Source: Methylophaga sp.
GTDB taxonomy: Bacteria; Pseudomonadota; Gammaproteobacteria; Nitrosococcales; Methylophagaceae
Direction: 5' to 3'
Length of the DNA: 64,000 nt
Assembly: GCA_030148085.1 (NCBI GenBank)
Contig: JASBUF010000030.1
Span: 1 to 64,000, forward strand
Below are positions 4,244 through 63,196 of this stretch, in pieces. Made by a program: the position numbers and the translations under genes. Under the pieces are notes generated by a model. It ran no database searches, was not told the origin of the DNA, and was given only the letters and a program-made list of their open reading frames with translations. Numbering within the stretch: the stretch's first letter is position 1; each line of letters starts with the position of its first letter.

Positions 4244-5288
4244 GTTGCCCCGCCACTGGCTCCATACCACATTGTGTAAGCAACTGCTGCCAACGCTCAG
4301 TGTGCAGCTGGATAGCCTTATTTAGTTGCTGCCAAACACTCCCCTCTGCTTCCACAGCAAAAGCATGACGCTGATACGTTTCGAATGTGTCTGGCATCAC
4401 CGTTTTCTGACTCATCGCCAACTGCTGCAAACGTGAGAATACTTGCTCCCCCGCCTGACTGGTCTTTGCCAGATACGGTTGCACACGACCGATGTACACG
4501 GAAAAGAACAGACCTTTCAGGCGTTCCGACTGCGTATTGGATTTGTGCTGATAACACAGAGGCCTGCTCTGCAAGCGTTGCAGCATCATTTCACTGCCCT
4601 GATTAAGCTGTGTAATGAGCAGGCTGGCACTATTTAGTAATTGTCCCGGCACCGGGTTGAATATCCAGCTTTGCTGCATCTCACCCAAGCCATCAAATAC
4701 TGCTTCATCACTTAGCGTATCCAGTTGCTCGCTGAGCCGGATAAGTGCGTCGAGCTGAAGGCTTAATTCACTGACCTTCGGATTAGTCGCGATGGGATAG
4801 AGACCGTTTGAACGCGTCAACAGCGCTGCCATCGGTTCGTCAGCCCAGATAGCATTCCAGAAATAGGCGGCCAGATTCTCCCGCTTATGCTGCATCGCCA
4901 GCCTGAGCTTGTTTATTAACGATTCGTTATCCAGCACAGACACACACTGGTTTGCCTTATCAATAAAACGAAGCTGATAGCGTAATTCATTCAGTGGTGT
5001 CATTACCCGCCCCAAAATGGAATTGCGTTCGGCAACTACCACCTGAAGTTCACAGCCATACAGAGATAAAAATGACAGCATTGAGATATCGAGCTCTTCG
5101 ATATCCACCCGTCTGTCACGGGGTCTGGGAAATGTCTGAACCGTGACCGTTTCAGCAGGTGGCAAGGACACATCCAGCACATATCCGAGGCGTGAGGTAT
5201 AGGCTTCCAACATGGAATCCGGCTCAGCAAACGGATCACAGCCGCAGAGTACACTGGTGATAAGGAAAAGCTGAACGATAAACCTCAT
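4224..5288 (-). CDS. DUF3080-family lipoprotein
   Basis: The 354-residue protein begins with a short hydrophobic leader and lipobox LCGC, so it is probably lipidated. The body is largely helical with many Gln and Leu residues. Length and the leader pattern fit DUF3080 proteins of marine gammaproteobacteria, whose function is unknown. It starts 4 bases after the stop of the upstream cupin gene, which suggests one transcript with the cupin and DUF1223 genes. Confidence 0.75.
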   Translation of the reverse strand: MRFIVQLFLITSVLCGCDPFAEPDSMLEAYTSRLGYVLDVSLPPAETVTVQTFPRPRDRRVDIEELDISMLSFLSLYGCELQVVVAERNSILGRVMTPLNELRYQLRFIDKANQCVSVLDNESLINKLRLAMQHKRENLAAYFWNAIWADEPMAALLTRSNGLYPIATNPKVSELSLQLDALIRLSEQLDTLSDEAVFDGLGEMQQSWIFNPVPGQLLNSASLLITQLNQGSEMMLQRLQSRPLCYQHKSNTQSERLKGLFFSVYIGRVQPYLAKTSQAGEQVFSRLQQLAMSQKTVMPDTFETYQRHAFAVEAEGSVWQQLNKAIQLHTERWQQLLTQCGMEPVAGQLRGRGL

Positions 5289-15582: not shown

Positions 15583-15622
15583 GGATACTTACCATTTTGT
15601 GTGATCGGTGTATAGTGAAATT

Positions 15623-16021
15623 ATGGGTACATTGCGCACAATCATTTTGCTCGCTTTAATAGTGCTGTTATTAGCTATCGGCCGCGCGTATTCTGTCAGC
15701 TCTACTTCACAGACGGACGTGCAAGCCGAAGAAGAGCAACAGCACATCGCTCAGCTTAGCCATCATTGTTATCTCAGATGGCAGGAGTATGACTGGACAA
15801 TGGGTGAGCATGGCTTACCTGCAAAAAACAATATCGCTTTCACTGACGGTATCAAGCGTATATGCCAAGTCAGGGCAGAACTGTTCTTTGAGGGCTATGA
15901 AGTTTCCCCCTTAATCGATCCTGACTCACAGCACATGATATTCCCGATAGTGTTCATGCCCGATGAGCAAGAACTGAAAGCTGTAATACGTCAGAATCTG
16001 CCTCCATTGACTGTAATCTGA
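15623..16021 (+). CDS. Single-pass membrane or exported protein, unknown
   Basis: From the ATG at 15623 the product has 132 residues. A hydrophobic N-terminal helix (RTIILLALIVLLLAIGRAYS) is followed by an acidic soluble domain with two cysteines (HHCYLRW and RICQVR). A GTG at 15608 is an alternative start; neither start has a good ribosome site. No family was recognised. Codon use resembles its neighbours, and a frame of this length with a clean N-terminal helix is probably genuine. Confidence 0.6.
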   Translation: MGTLRTIILLALIVLLLAIGRAYSVSSTSQTDVQAEEEQQHIAQLSHHCYLRWQEYDWTMGEHGLPAKNNIAFTDGIKRICQVRAELFFEGYEVSPLIDPDSQHMIFPIVFMPDEQELKAVIRQNLPPLTVI

Positions 16022-16178
16022 CGTTCATCCCCGTCATTTATTCCCTCTCATATTTCTGCGTTCGTATTCACGTTACTATGCATTCAGCCTATCTATATGC
16101 TGGAATCAGCAATTACATATTTGAAATTGGAATCTAATGTGCATAATAGACATCGCTTTACACAAAAATAATAATATA

Positions 16179-16203
16179 TTGCACACAACACAGTTGTGTG
16201 CAA
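16179..16203. promoter_or_regulatory. Palindromic operator upstream of ohrR-like gene
   Basis: TTGCACACAAC (16179-16189) and GTTGTGTGCAA (16193-16203) form a perfect 11-bp inverted repeat with spacer ACA, 25 bases before the regulator start. It follows an AT-rich run (AATAATATA) that may be the -10 region. Size and position fit a MarR/OhrR dimer site for autoregulation. Confidence 0.7.
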
Positions 16204-16228
16204 CCATACATTCAAGAGGATGAGAAAA

Positions 16229-16690
16229 ATGCCGCAATTTGAAAACCTGAAACTCGACCGGCAACTGTGCTTTGCACTCTATAGCGCCACCAACAGCATC
16301 ACGCGTATGTATCGCGGCCTGCTTGATGAATACGATCTGACCTATCCTCAATACCTGGTGTTAGTTGTGCTATGGGAAAAAGATGGGATCGCCATCAAGG
16401 AAGTCATGAAACGCCTGAACCTAGACTCCGGAACCCTGTCACCAATTATCAAACGCCTGCAGATCGCGGGTCTGGTTGAGAAAGTAAGAACAGACAAAGA
16501 CGAACGTATCGTTCGCCTCCTGCTAACTGATAAAGCACGAAAACTTCAACCTATGATTGCCGATGTGCAGAATCAGGTCGCTTGTCAGACTGAGCTGTCC
16601 TCTGAAGAATTTTTCGAACTTCTCGACAGACTGAACCAACTCGCCGCTAGTCTCAATAATACAGAAGCGAAACAGTCTGTCGCGTCGTAA
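16229..16690 (+). CDS. OhrR-type MarR-family peroxide-sensing repressor
   Basis: From the ATG at 16229 (AGAGG upstream) the product has 153 residues. It starts LKLDRQLCFALYSATNSITR and continues YDLTYPQYLVLVVLWE, the OhrR signature in which Cys14 is the reactive cysteine. A second cysteine, Cys119, lies 105 residues later, the same spacing as Cys22 and Cys127 of Xanthomonas OhrR, so a two-cysteine disulfide switch is likely. The winged helix is around residues 55-100. No ohr gene is adjacent; the next gene is an exported globin. A palindromic operator precedes the gene. Confidence 0.85.
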   Translation: MPQFENLKLDRQLCFALYSATNSITRMYRGLLDEYDLTYPQYLVLVVLWEKDGIAIKEVMKRLNLDSGTLSPIIKRLQIAGLVEKVRTDKDERIVRLLLTDKARKLQPMIADVQNQVACQTELSSEEFFELLDRLNQLAASLNNTEAKQSVAS

Positions 16691-16722
16691 CGTGGCATAA
16701 ATTATTGATGCCACGTTTTTTT
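16690..16722 (+). terminator. Terminator between ohrR-like and globin genes
   Basis: ACGTGGCAT (16690-16698) pairs perfectly with ATGCCACGT (16708-16716) and is followed by seven T. It separates the regulator from the globin gene only 25 bases before the latter's start, so it may act as an attenuator or leave the globin to read-through. Confidence 0.85.
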
Positions 16723-16746
16723 GTATCCTTTTTTAGGAGAGAGAAA

Positions 16747-17331
16747 ATGAACACACGTGGCATTAATAACAATCTAGCCTGGATCACAGTAAATAAATGT
16801 CTGATTTTCACCGCTGTTGGCCTCATGCTGGCAGTGGTTATCAGTTTCAGTCAAACTGCCAAGGCCGAAGAGAAAAAGAGCCTTTATGAACGGTTGGGAG
16901 GCACCTATAACATAGCCCTCACCGTCGATCACCTTGTCGATCTCATCTACGATAATCAAGGACTGAATGCGAACCCGATTCTGGATGCCCTTCACCAACA
17001 AAAGCACACTAAAGCCGGCTTTAAAGTTATGTTGACCAACTGGGTGGTGGAAGAAACCGGGGGCCCGGAAATCTATATGCCTGATCCCTTCGGCCGCGGT
17101 AAATCGATGAAGGACAGCCACCCTCATCTTAATATTTCCAATCGCGAGTTCGATATTATCAAAACACTCTGCCTAGCGACATTTTATCACTTCAATGTCG
17201 GTAACCAGGAAATCAACGAACTAATGGATGCACTGGAAAGTTACCGTTATCAGATTGTGACCAGAAAAGACGAAGCACCATTCAAGTCACGTTTGGTAAA
17301 AGAAATGGACGGTATCGATTACAAAGAGTAA
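16747..17331 (+). CDS. Exported group 1 truncated hemoglobin-like protein
   Basis: From the ATG at 16747 (GGAGAG upstream) the product has 194 residues. An unusually long signal sequence runs to about residue 40, with hydrophobic core IFTAVGLMLAVVISF and cleavage after AKA. The mature domain starts KKSLYERLGGTYNIALTVDHLVD, the group 1 truncated globin opening. The proximal histidine is probably the first His of DSHPHLNIS, followed by EFDIIKTL. A C-terminal charged extension follows. Periplasmic location would be unusual for this family. It follows a peroxide-type regulator, so a role with peroxides or NO in the periplasm is an inference. Confidence 0.8.
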   Translation: MNTRGINNNLAWITVNKCLIFTAVGLMLAVVISFSQTAKAEEKKSLYERLGGTYNIALTVDHLVDLIYDNQGLNANPILDALHQQKHTKAGFKVMLTNWVVEETGGPEIYMPDPFGRGKSMKDSHPHLNISNREFDIIKTLCLATFYHFNVGNQEINELMDALESYRYQIVTRKDEAPFKSRLVKEMDGIDYKE

Positions 17332-17351
17332 TCGTCTCCAAATGGGTCTTT

Positions 17352-17376
17352 GCCCCGCTCAGTGCGGGGCATTTTT
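17352..17376 (+). terminator. Terminator of the globin gene
   Basis: GCCCCGC / GCGGGGC with loop TCAGT is followed by ATTTTT. It ends just before the stop of the convergent membrane-protein gene at 17378. Confidence 0.85.
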
Positions 17377-17377
17377 A

Positions 17378-18160
17378 TTACACGGTCAGACGCGATGCAA
17401 TACGCAGCATCAACCAGATAAACAGCAAAGGCATAATCAGCATAAGCAGAACAAATTCGGCGAGTAGATAAATCGCTGCCTGTACTCCCTGCTCTGCACG
17501 CGCGGTCACTTGTGCCAATCTGCTTTCAATATTCAGTTGTCGCCGCAAGTCACTCAGCCAGCCCGACTCTTGATCCTGTTGCTGATTCAATACGGCCACC
17601 TCCTCTTGTGTCGTCTCCAGCACACTGACGGCCTGTTGCCGTTCCTGTTCGAGCCAACCCTGAACGTGATAACTTGCCAGCCCCATCACCGGAACCATCA
17701 GTCTTAACAGTGTCAGCACAATCACCAGCCGGAATAAGCCCTGCCGCCACTGGGGCCGCAGCTTATTTGTGGCAATAACCAGCACACTGAGCAGAGTCAG
17801 CCCTGCCAGCACGACGCGCACAACAGGCTTATCGGCCAACAGTAACATTATCTGCTGAATACCCAGTGATGCTGAGGCCAATAGCAGGACATCGGAAAAC
17901 TGTTCAACCAGATCATTAAGCGGATCAAGAATTTCACCCGGCGCCAGGGTCACGCCGACGCCCATCGGCTCAATAGACATCTCAGTACCTTGCGCCACCG
18001 AAATCACCGCATTGAGACTTCGAGCCAGCGCATAGACCGAGAGCGTCACTTTGAGCATATCGGCCAGGCTGTCATCCATAAACCACTGCAACGGCACACA
18101 GGCCAGAATCAAACACAACAGCAAAAGCAATTGATAAAGTCGAACGTTCGTTCTCCGCAT
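17378..18160 (-). CDS. Multi-pass inner-membrane protein, unknown
   Basis: The 260-residue protein has about five hydrophobic segments: near residues 8-26, 85-105, 113-128, 140-162 and 228-252. A coiled-coil-like hydrophilic stretch (QERQQAVSVLETTQEEVAVL and on to EARLAQ-like repeats) lies between the last two. AGAGAG precedes the ATG. No known family was recognised. It lies between two convergent or divergent single genes with no clear operon partner. Confidence 0.65.
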   Translation of the reverse strand: MRRTNVRLYQLLLLLCLILACVPLQWFMDDSLADMLKVTLSVYALARSLNAVISVAQGTEMSIEPMGVGVTLAPGEILDPLNDLVEQFSDVLLLASASLGIQQIMLLLADKPVVRVVLAGLTLLSVLVIATNKLRPQWRQGLFRLVIVLTLLRLMVPVMGLASYHVQGWLEQERQQAVSVLETTQEEVAVLNQQQDQESGWLSDLRRQLNIESRLAQVTARAEQGVQAAIYLLAEFVLLMLIMPLLFIWLMLRIASRLTV

Positions 18161-20953: not shown

Positions 20954-22162
20954 ATGATAAAACCTGAGTCCATAGCAGTAATCAAAGCCACTGTACCCGT
21001 GTTACAAGAACATGGTGAAGCCCTGACCCGCTTGTTTTATCAGCGCATGTTCGAGAATAATCCTGAGGTCAAAGTCTTTTTCAATCAGGCTCATCAGCAC
21101 GCTGGTTCACAACAACGTGCCCTCGCCGCTGCCGTCTGTGCCTACGCAGAGAATATCGATAACCCCGCTGTTCTTGCAGATGCGGTCGAATTAATTGCCC
21201 AGAAACATGCGTCACTGGGTATTCAGCCTGAACACTACCCTATCGTCGGCCAGAACCTCTTGGCCGCAATTAAAGAGTTACTGGGTGAGGCCGCCACTGA
21301 TGCGATTATCGATGCCTGGGCAGAAGCTTATCAGGCACTTGCCACTATCTTTATTGAGCGTGAACAAGCGATCTACCAACAGCATGAAACCCAACATGGC
21401 TGGCAAGGCTTTAAAGCCTTTAAAGTCATCAACAGTCCGCAGGAAAGTGACAACATTCGATCTTTTTATCTGCAACCTGAGGACGGCTCAACCATCGTCG
21501 CTCATCAACCAGGGCAATATATTACCGTCAAAGTTGATAATGGAAATGGCCAGCAGCTACGAAACTACAGTCTTTCAAATCTGCCCGGCAGCGACGCTTA
21601 TCGCATCAGTGTAAAACGCGAAAGCTCTGGCGAATCAACGCAGCCTCATGGTGTGGTCTCAAGCTTTCTGCATGAGCACATCAACGACGGCGATACTATT
21701 TGGCTTGGCCCACCTTGCGGTGAGTTTGTGCTGCGCAGCAACAGTGACACACCTGTCGTGCTGATTGCAGGCGGCGTTGGTATCACACCCTTGCTTGCCA
21801 TGCTGCATCAACGCGTGTCGAGTGAAGCACCGGCAGCGACCACACTAATCCAAGCCGCAGTGAATGGTGATGCGCATGCCTTCGCGGATGAAATCCGAAG
21901 CCTTACATCAGCACATCCACAATTAAGCTGGCATGTTCGCTACAGCGAACCTAGTGAAGAGGATCGCCAACAAGGCAGTTTTGACAGTGAAGGGCTAATC
22001 GATGATGAGCTAGTAAGCAACCTTGATACTGCTGCAGATTATTACTTATGTGGCCCTGTCGCGATGATGAAACAATGTTATCAATTGCTGACTCAGGCTG
22101 GCATTCCTGCCGAAAAAATCTTCAGCGAAGCTTTTGGCCCTGCGCAATCATTACAGAGCTAG
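20954..22162 (+). CDS. hmp: Flavohemoglobin, nitric oxide dioxygenase
   Basis: The 402-residue protein has a globin domain (about 1-140), with the proximal His in AQKHASLGIQPEHYPIVG. A ferredoxin-reductase FAD domain (about 150-255) follows with the RxYS-type motif LRNYSLSN. The NAD domain contains AGGVGITPLLAML and YYLCGPVAMMK. It oxidises NO to nitrate with O2 and NAD(P)H in the cytosol. AGGAGA precedes the ATG. It is convergent with nsrR and carries an NsrR-type site upstream. Confidence 0.97.
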   Translation: MIKPESIAVIKATVPVLQEHGEALTRLFYQRMFENNPEVKVFFNQAHQHAGSQQRALAAAVCAYAENIDNPAVLADAVELIAQKHASLGIQPEHYPIVGQNLLAAIKELLGEAATDAIIDAWAEAYQALATIFIEREQAIYQQHETQHGWQGFKAFKVINSPQESDNIRSFYLQPEDGSTIVAHQPGQYITVKVDNGNGQQLRNYSLSNLPGSDAYRISVKRESSGESTQPHGVVSSFLHEHINDGDTIWLGPPCGEFVLRSNSDTPVVLIAGGVGITPLLAMLHQRVSSEAPAATTLIQAAVNGDAHAFADEIRSLTSAHPQLSWHVRYSEPSEEDRQQGSFDSEGLIDDELVSNLDTAADYYLCGPVAMMKQCYQLLTQAGIPAEKIFSEAFGPAQSLQS

Positions 22163-22199: not shown

Positions 22200-22631
22200 T
22201 TAGGCTACATTCAGACTTTGCATTAATTGAGGTTTGTTTTTCACTACGTCGGCTAGCGTGTAACCATCCAGCACTTCCAGAAATGCTTTCTGTGCCTTAC
22301 GCATGGCACTGAATAGAATACAGACGTTCTCAATCGGGCAGGCGCACTCCTCACCAAAGCACTCAAGAATCTCCAGATTCTCAGTTTTTCTGATCAACTT
22401 TCCAATATTGATATCGGCTGGGTCCAGCGCCAGTTGTAAACCGCCACCACGACCACGCTGACTGATAACGATATTTTCTTGTACTAACTTCTGTGCGACT
22501 TTAGCCAGATGATTGGTAGAGATGCCGTAACGCTCGGACGCATCTTTTACAGTAGCAGGCTTATCTTTTGGATGAATCGCGAGATAAACCAACAACCTCA
22601 TTGCGTAATCCGAGTGTGTGGTGAGTTGCAT
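22200..22631 (-). CDS. nsrR: Rrf2-family nitric oxide-sensing repressor NsrR
   Basis: From the ATG at 22631 (AGGAG upstream) the product has 143 residues and begins MQLTTHSDYAMRLLVYLA, the standard NsrR start. The winged helix contains ISTNHLAKVAQKLV and QRGRGGGLQLA. Cys91, Cys96, Cys98 and Cys104 cluster in ECFGEECACPIENVC; three of them should hold the Fe-S cluster that reacts with NO. Spacing to the last Cys is two residues longer than in E. coli NsrR. It probably represses hmp next to it. Confidence 0.93.
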   Translation of the reverse strand: MQLTTHSDYAMRLLVYLAIHPKDKPATVKDASERYGISTNHLAKVAQKLVQENIVISQRGRGGGLQLALDPADINIGKLIRKTENLEILECFGEECACPIENVCILFSAMRKAQKAFLEVLDGYTLADVVKNKPQLMQSLNVA

Positions 22632-22990
22632 GCACTTGACTCCTTGTTTATTCCGTATATGATATCCCACTTTAAATTGGTATATTGAATACCAATAAAC
22701 TTAGTGATGCGCCTCCGTTAGCGAATCCTGCGAGAGATTGTTGGATGAAGCAAATATTCGGCCATCTAAGTTGATCACGATTATGCAGTGCACAATTTAG
22801 CTTGATATTCACAGTTATGACCGAAGAGCTACTCCTCTTCTTCGGTTTGCTTTGAGCCCATCTTCTTGGTGGGCTCGTTTTTATTCAGACTTTTTACGCC
22901 CCATCCTGCCCCCTCTGCACAAATTTGGCGCACCTTTATTAGATCTCCGAGGTTCAACAAAGTTTCATCAATGCCATGAAAAAGACAGTC
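22632..22990. other. 359-base gap with a palindrome and a possible small RNA
   Basis: ATTGGTAT (22676-22683) and ATACCAAT (22689-22696) form a perfect inverted repeat with a 5-base spacer, 45 bases upstream of nsrR. It may be an operator for nsrR or for a plus-strand transcript. Further right lies the terminator-like hairpin described separately. No protein gene longer than a few codons was seen. Confidence 0.45.
22820..22883 (+). ncRNA. Candidate small RNA or leader transcript ending in a terminator
   Basis: Two hairpins follow one another: CCGAAGA with TCTTCGG (22821-22845), then GAGCCCA (22854-22860) with TGGGCTC (22870-22876), followed by GTTTTT. The second is a plus-strand terminator, yet no plus-strand gene lies between nsrR and it, so some short transcript must start between about 22697 and 22815. 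A 12-codon frame MTEELLLFFGLL (22818-22856) lies inside without a ribosome site. No known sRNA family was recognised. Confidence 0.35.
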
Positions 22991-62242: not shown

Positions 62243-63196
62243 ATGACTGAACATATGCCCCGCCCCATCTGCACACTCTGCCTGAATCCGGCACTGGATG
62301 TGACCTATCACGTTGCCAAATTAATTCCCGATGAAAAATCGCGCTCAGCCAGCGCCCGCCACGATCCTGGCGGCAATGGCATCAATATCGGTCGCGCATT
62401 GAAACGGATGAATATTTCATCCCATACGATTTGTGTCATTGCAGGCAGCGTTGGTCAAATCTTTAAAACCCTGCTAAAAGACCAGCTCGATCATGTCGTA
62501 TATGAGGAAATTGAAGGAGAAACCCGCATCAATACGACGATTATCGAGACAGATACCCATACGCAATACCAGGTTACCGGCAGTGGCACTGACATTCCCC
62601 CAGCCGAAATTGTCCGTATCGCCAATGACTTTATTGAGGTAACGTCTAACGGCTACGGCATTATCACCGGCTCTTGTCAGCCCAATATTCACGTTACGCT
62701 CTATGCCGATCTGGTTCAGCGACTGAATGAGCAAGGTGCGCGTGCAGTTGTCGATGCGCATGGCGAAATGCTCAAACTGGCGATCGCGGAGAAGCCTTTT
62801 TTAATCAAACCCAATAAACATGAACTCGAACAAATGCTCAATAAGCCGCTGCAATCGGTGGAAGCGGTAGCTGAATGTGCCCGCGGCATACAACGCAGTG
62901 GTGTGGATTTCGTCTGTGTTTCACTCAGTCACGAAGGCGCACTCTTAGTCAGCCCTGACAACAGCTATTACGCACCAACATTAGATGTGCCCGTTAATAC
63001 CACCGTCGGCGCAGGTGACTCCATGGTCGCCGGGATGGTTGCTTCGTTCAATATGTATGAGAACGCTGAGCTCGCACTGAGATGGGGTATTGCCTGTGGC
63101 GCCGGTACAGTCATGCATCCCGGCACAGAACTCTTCAATTCCGAAGAAATTTCTGAATTGCAGAGCAAAGTGCTAGTTAAACAGTTGGATATTTGA
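62243..63196 (+). CDS. PfkB-family hexose-phosphate kinase (1-phosphofructokinase-like)
   Basis: The 317-residue sugar kinase starts PICTLCLNPALDVTYHV and has the PfkB motifs DPGGNGINIGRALKRM and NTTVGAGDSMVAGMVASF, where the Asp is the catalytic base. It resembles 6-phosphofructokinase II, FruK and LacC; which sugar phosphate it uses is not clear. No PTS genes are near. An ATG 12 bases on is an alternative start. Confidence 0.88.
   Translation: MTEHMPRPICTLCLNPALDVTYHVAKLIPDEKSRSASARHDPGGNGINIGRALKRMNISSHTICVIAGSVGQIFKTLLKDQLDHVVYEEIEGETRINTTIIETDTHTQYQVTGSGTDIPPAEIVRIANDFIEVTSNGYGIITGSCQPNIHVTLYADLVQRLNEQGARAVVDAHGEMLKLAIAEKPFLIKPNKHELEQMLNKPLQSVEAVAECARGIQRSGVDFVCVSLSHEGALLVSPDNSYYAPTLDVPVNTTVGAGDSMVAGMVASFNMYENAELALRWGIACGAGTVMHPGTELFNSEEISELQSKVLVKQLDI

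Follow-up and report, generated by a model that had tools for sequence, protein, structure and literature searches.

The usual partner of OhrR is the organic-hydroperoxide reductase Ohr. In the 64-kb stretch of Methylophaga DNA analysed here (the window) there is no Ohr, and the neighbour of ohrR is a gene for a truncated globin with a predicted signal peptide. The locus thus raises the question of what a thiol-based peroxide sensor may control where Ohr is missing, and whether the globin is one of its targets.

The regulator and the globin

Cys14 and Cys119, the sole cysteines of the window OhrR, are 105 residues apart and align with Cys22 and Cys127 of Xanthomonas OhrR. In the same alignment Tyr28 and Tyr39 occupy the places of Xanthomonas Tyr36 and Tyr47, which form hydrogen bonds to the reactive cysteine in two-cysteine OhrR (PMC3469484, PMC5201249). 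Xanthomonas OhrR (2pfb) is also the closest PDB structure (E 7.7e-36), and the score against NF052638, a Vibrio-type model, is 155.6 bits, with a cut-off of 200. As judged by alignment, the protein has the complete residue set for the two-cysteine sensing mechanism. In common with the OhrR–Ohr systems of Xanthomonas, Chromobacterium violaceum, Sinorhizobium meliloti, and Agrobacterium, the locus displays a two-cysteine MarR-family sensor with conserved Cys and Tyr residues and a dyad at the promoter of the regulator itself, and a response to organic hydroperoxides would be expected here as well.

The downstream protein scores 25.6 bits against Pfam Bac_globin (PF01152; cut-off 21), and its PDB matches are group 1 truncated hemoglobins (E about 1e-5). 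With trHbN, the cyanoglobins, and the PDB 8uzu group it shares the Bac_globin domain, the LGG motif, GGP..Y, and the proximal His F8, which alignment places at His125. It departs from them in its signal peptide, a 6-residue insertion before the F8 histidine, and a C-terminal tail. The distal pocket is predicted to be apolar, in a branch of globins where all three trHbN residues TyrB10, GlnE11, and PheCD1 are replaced: alignment puts Val64 and Leu96 at the places of TyrB10 and GlnE11, and PheCD1 is absent. An AlphaFold model built with three sequences as input reached a mean pLDDT of 46.7 and was set aside.

All four Methylophaga copies of the globin carry a hydrophobic N-terminus and an AxA or VxA pattern ahead of the mature domain, and this pattern persists despite divergence elsewhere in the signal region. 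The mature globins display pS values of 0.75–0.89 and pN values of 0.04–0.11, so that their synonymous sites are near saturation; the disparity between synonymous and nonsynonymous differences indicates globins that are old, functional, and strongly constrained. The original prediction, which had described a two-cysteine OhrR of 105-residue spacing preceded by a perfect 11-bp palindrome and followed by a group 1 truncated globin with a signal sequence, with no ohr gene present, is borne out in each of these parts, and its suggestion that the globin is exported is supported by the signal peptide pattern.

Table 1. Features of the ohrR–globin locus (window coordinates)
Feature	Position	Strand	Details
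Sigma-70-like promoter of ohrR (predicted)	16147-16175	+	TAGACA-17-AATAAT; consensus scan, 10/12 matches
Perfect dyad, putative OhrR operator	16179-16203	none	TTGCACACAAC-ACA-GTTGTGTGCAA; 25 bp
ohrR, two-cysteine MarR/OhrR family repressor, peroxide-sensing (predicted)	16229-16690	+	153 aa; Cys14, Cys119, Tyr28, Tyr39
Conserved nucleic-acid element (putative RNA leader/attenuator)	16607-16749	+	ohrR 3' end, hairpins, up to globin start codon
Hairpin P1	16624-16682	+	Arms 16624-16633 and 16673-16682; 10 bp, perfect
Intrinsic-terminator hairpin P2 and T7 tract	16689-16722	+	Arms 16689-16698 and 16708-16717; overlaps ohrR stop codon
Group 1 truncated globin, exported (predicted)	16747-17331	+	194 aa; proximal His125
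Signal peptide of globin (predicted)	16747-16866	+	Residues 1-40; hydrophobic N-terminus, then AxA/VxA
Terminator-like hairpin 3' of globin	17351-17371	+	

Several neighbours deserve mention. A small exported protein that matches no Pfam family (15608-16021, +) lies directly 5' of ohrR in many Methylophaga and has a paralogue elsewhere in the genome (G000:C68:74626-74877). A 260-residue membrane protein without a Pfam or NCBIfam match (17378-18160, −) is conserved in convergent orientation to ohrR across Methylophaga. The flavohemoglobin Hmp (20954-22162, +) and a convergent Rrf2/NsrR-type regulator (22200-22670, −) are encoded 4 kb from the globin.

Recurrence of the pair in an Ohr-less genus

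The window lies on contig C88 of G000, a Methylophaga metagenome assembly of 2.46 Mb (90% complete, 3.3% contamination). The Ohr model TIGR03561 finds no match in this genome, in which peroxiredoxin-type genes are present, and across 24 Methylophaga genomes none above cut-off. OhrR orthologues within the genus are 58–84% identical, and in most genomes that have OhrR they occupy one syntenic locus, in the order mechanosensitive channel gene, small exported protein gene, ohrR, and convergent membrane-protein gene. The globin is usually absent from this locus, and OhrR stands alone in most species. The earlier idea that the globin replaces Ohr must therefore be rejected as stated: since the genus is without a bona fide Ohr and most species have OhrR without the globin, Ohr was lost and the globin gained in separate events, and the distribution indicates that the globin joined an OhrR that was already without Ohr. 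Because most Methylophaga keep OhrR without the globin, the regulator must also have another role.

A search of other genomes for the same pair, as originally proposed, found it at three places besides the window. One is at the terminus of C84, another contig of this assembly, where the two proteins are 76% and 72% identical to those of the window; since the assembly is metagenomic, this contig could belong to another strain. The second is a different Methylophaga species (G050), and in a tree of OhrR the pair members fall among the core Methylophaga OhrRs. The third is a Roseovarius plasmid, in which an OhrR with Cys15 and Cys120 lies 42 bp from a related globin (40% identity) that is without a signal peptide; this is an independent occurrence, outside the genus.

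The pair is rare. Relatives of the globin were found in 369 genomes from the class to which the window belongs and in 398 from its phylum, but no P0001-like regulator in the short flanks fetched outside Methylophaga. A search for the Roseovarius globin (P0004) among 385 genomes belonging to a second class gave no match at E 1e-20, and no similar globin lies within 3 kb of close, plasmid-borne relatives of the Roseovarius OhrR (Methylobacterium, Tritonibacter, Caballeronia). Viral contigs yielded one weak globin match.

Two side observations concern mobility. Contig C84 ends just after the globin, at a possible mobile-element boundary, and upstream of its pair (L024, ~4640-4760) an apparent 5' half of tRNA-Arg can be made out by eye, where ARAGORN reports no complete tRNA. 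A globin on a haloarchaeal plasmid (Halomarina, L079:3989-4411) is 59% identical to that of the Roseovarius pair, which suggests inter-domain transfer.

The putative operator and a natural deletion of ohrR

The dyad ahead of ohrR consists of two 11-bp arms that are 100% complementary across a 3-bp spacer, and it overlaps the start region of the promoter-like site. It is the only ACAAY-N3-RTTGT site within the 64 kb. First-order Markov copies of the window yield one comparable dyad per 10 windows; the remaining perfect 11-bp dyads of the real window are nearly all GC-rich hairpins within A/T tracts and are terminator-like. Known OhrR operators are TACAATT-AATTGTA or GCAAATT-type sites (PMC5201249, PMC3107159). 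The window dyad, TTGCACACAAC-N3-GTTGTGTGCAA, is of neither type; its core, ACAAC-N3-GTTGT, resembles TACAATT-AATTGTA, but the flanks differ.

Related dyads precede ohrR in G050 and a globin without ohrR in a third species (G044), and that before ohrR on contig C84 is less regular, with 4 mismatches relative to the window core. Three genomes (G044, G000, G050) were scanned for GCACACAAC-N3-GTTGTGTGC with up to 3 mismatches and with the reversed pattern as control. G000 contains the ohrR site and one intragenic site, and G050 has three sites, one of them at ohrR; the reversed pattern has none in the three genomes. An operator-like match at position 62886 of the window lies inside a sugar-kinase-like reading frame and was taken as chance. 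The best dyad before the Roseovarius ohrR is no better than those of shuffled sequence.

The G044 globin has no ohrR beside it and lies past two tRNA genes. Upstream of it are the dyad TTGCACACAAGATTGTTGTGAGATA, about 200 bp 5' of the globin and the only operator site with up to 3 mismatches in that 2.4-Mb genome, and what is left of the 3' end of ohrR, its frame broken. An intact ohrR is found on another contig, without a globin, and its promoter carries a different palindrome, TGTATTGCTCGCAATACA; it is assumed that the product of this core gene reads the operator of the globin. Since the synonymous sites of the globins are near saturation, the kept operator points to selection and is unlikely to reflect mere inertia, the deletion itself being undated. 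Retention of the dyad after deletion of ohrR provides the best evidence of the set, and suggests that the operator serves the globin; the deletion amounts to a natural reporter fusion for the regulatory claim. Together with recurrence of the pair, it supports the initial proposal that the palindrome is an OhrR operator with the globin as target, and such control of the globin, considered by itself, is probable.

An OhrR-type regulator with a target other than Ohr has a precedent in EstR-estC of Agrobacterium tumefaciens (PMC5201249), where likewise a paralogue of OhrR adjoins a non-ohr target gene. EstC, however, is an esterase encoded divergently, whereas the window target would be an exported globin, encoded in the same direction and behind a terminator.

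From the terminator to the globin

The two genes do not form a simple operon: the predicted terminator P2 (−13.4 kcal/mol, z −5.7) stands between them. From this hairpin to the globin start there are about 24 bases, into which a promoter does not fit. Neither this hairpin nor the second pair on contig C84 figured in the original prediction. P2 is kept at all pair loci, with a shorter and weaker version (−8.1) in G044. A related hairpin lies 3' of ohrR in G055, where the globin is absent, and P2 is thus probably the ancestral terminator of ohrR.

The 3' end of ohrR is abnormally conserved at synonymous sites, which suggests an RNA leader element. From codon 121 to the end, codons in the three intact pair loci are identical at 23/27, 20/25, and 22/27 conserved-residue positions, as against 47/98, 29/87, and 29/83 before it (Fisher P of 4e-4, 4e-5, and 2e-5, values that are optimistic in that the boundary was picked after viewing the alignment). 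At loci without the globin this conservation is lacking in the G044 core gene and in G049 and is present in part in G055 and G047. In the noncoding remnant of G044, one pair in each of P1 and P2 has changed on both sides, that in P1 from G-C to A-U; a shuffling control on four sequences (26/500) renders these compensatory pairs only suggestive. Among the 24 Methylophaga genomes a covariance model of the leader matches only ohrR 3' ends and the region before the solo G044 globin, and Rfam contains nothing close to gathering score. From these features we infer an attenuator or other cis-acting RNA, and, speculatively, its action could be tied to the ribosome at the stop codon of ohrR. Anti-Shine-Dalgarno pairing, suggested by the fold of the window, was dropped, as inspection by eye did not reveal it in the copies of C84 and G044.

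Recent recombination or gene conversion between copies might produce the same conservation, as G000 has two copies and the conserved segment is short and flanks the globin. This explanation is rather unlikely: the segment is common to G044 and to G050, a different species, the globin next to it has almost saturated synonymous sites, and the compensatory pairs also speak against it.

It is less probable still that the globin is a mere bystander, with OhrR regulating only itself and distant genes and the globin insulated behind the terminator, its expression coming from weak read-through or a cryptic promoter within ohrR. The terminator does separate the genes, and OhrR is alone at the locus in most species, the two being adjacent in few genomes. 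On the other hand, adjacency has recurred independently in Roseovarius, one genome has two intact pair loci, G044 lost ohrR ahead of the globin and yet kept both operator and leader, and there is no promoter room between hairpin and globin.

Under operator control of the globin, reduced OhrR would bind the dyad over its own promoter and keep both ohrR and the downstream globin off. An organic (lipid) hydroperoxide would oxidise Cys14, a disulfide would form with Cys119 of the partner subunit, and the oxidised repressor would leave the dyad, permitting a transcript that starts there. Because there is no promoter room beyond it, the hairpin at the ohrR stop codon, inside the conserved leader, would set read-through into the globin. 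The globin, exported by Sec and loaded with heme, could then act in the periplasm on membrane peroxidation products or on a small ligand that such stress sets free. Read from sequence, this combination of an OhrR-dyad switch, leader read-through, and an exported globin is moderately favoured. That the exported heme globin is the effector under direct control of an OhrR lacking Ohr, with an attenuator gate at the RNA level, is a tentative proposal and somewhat doubtful. No paper linking OhrR to a truncated globin target was found in the literature searched. The locus offers a way to test whether a thiol peroxide sensor controls a globin; such control would hint at the physiology of exported truncated globins, whose functions are hardly known, and would widen OhrR targets beyond Ohr.

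As to the chemistry, NO dioxygenases are known among group 1 truncated globins, trHbN of M. tuberculosis being one, and NO-detoxifying Hmp and an NsrR-like regulator are encoded nearby; that the globin handles NO or O2, as a dioxygenase or scavenger whose induction by peroxide is incidental, is nevertheless improbable, since replacement of TyrB10, GlnE11, and PheCD1 does not favour trHbN-like NO dioxygenation, no reductase partner is encoded beside the globin, and the cytosolic Hmp already serves NO detoxification. A role in hydroperoxide chemistry is plausible from the logic of induction and by analogy with YjbI of B. subtilis, a cell-surface truncated globin with protein-hydroperoxide peroxidase-like activity (PMC9536834). 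Both globins would lie outside the cytoplasm. YjbI, however, belongs to group II, uses Tyr63 near the heme (a tyrosine not equated in the window globin), and has no link to OhrR (PMC9536834). In several proteobacterial genomes (L106, L120, L122, L123), two or more globin domains of group 1 either occur in tandem or share a single long reading frame.
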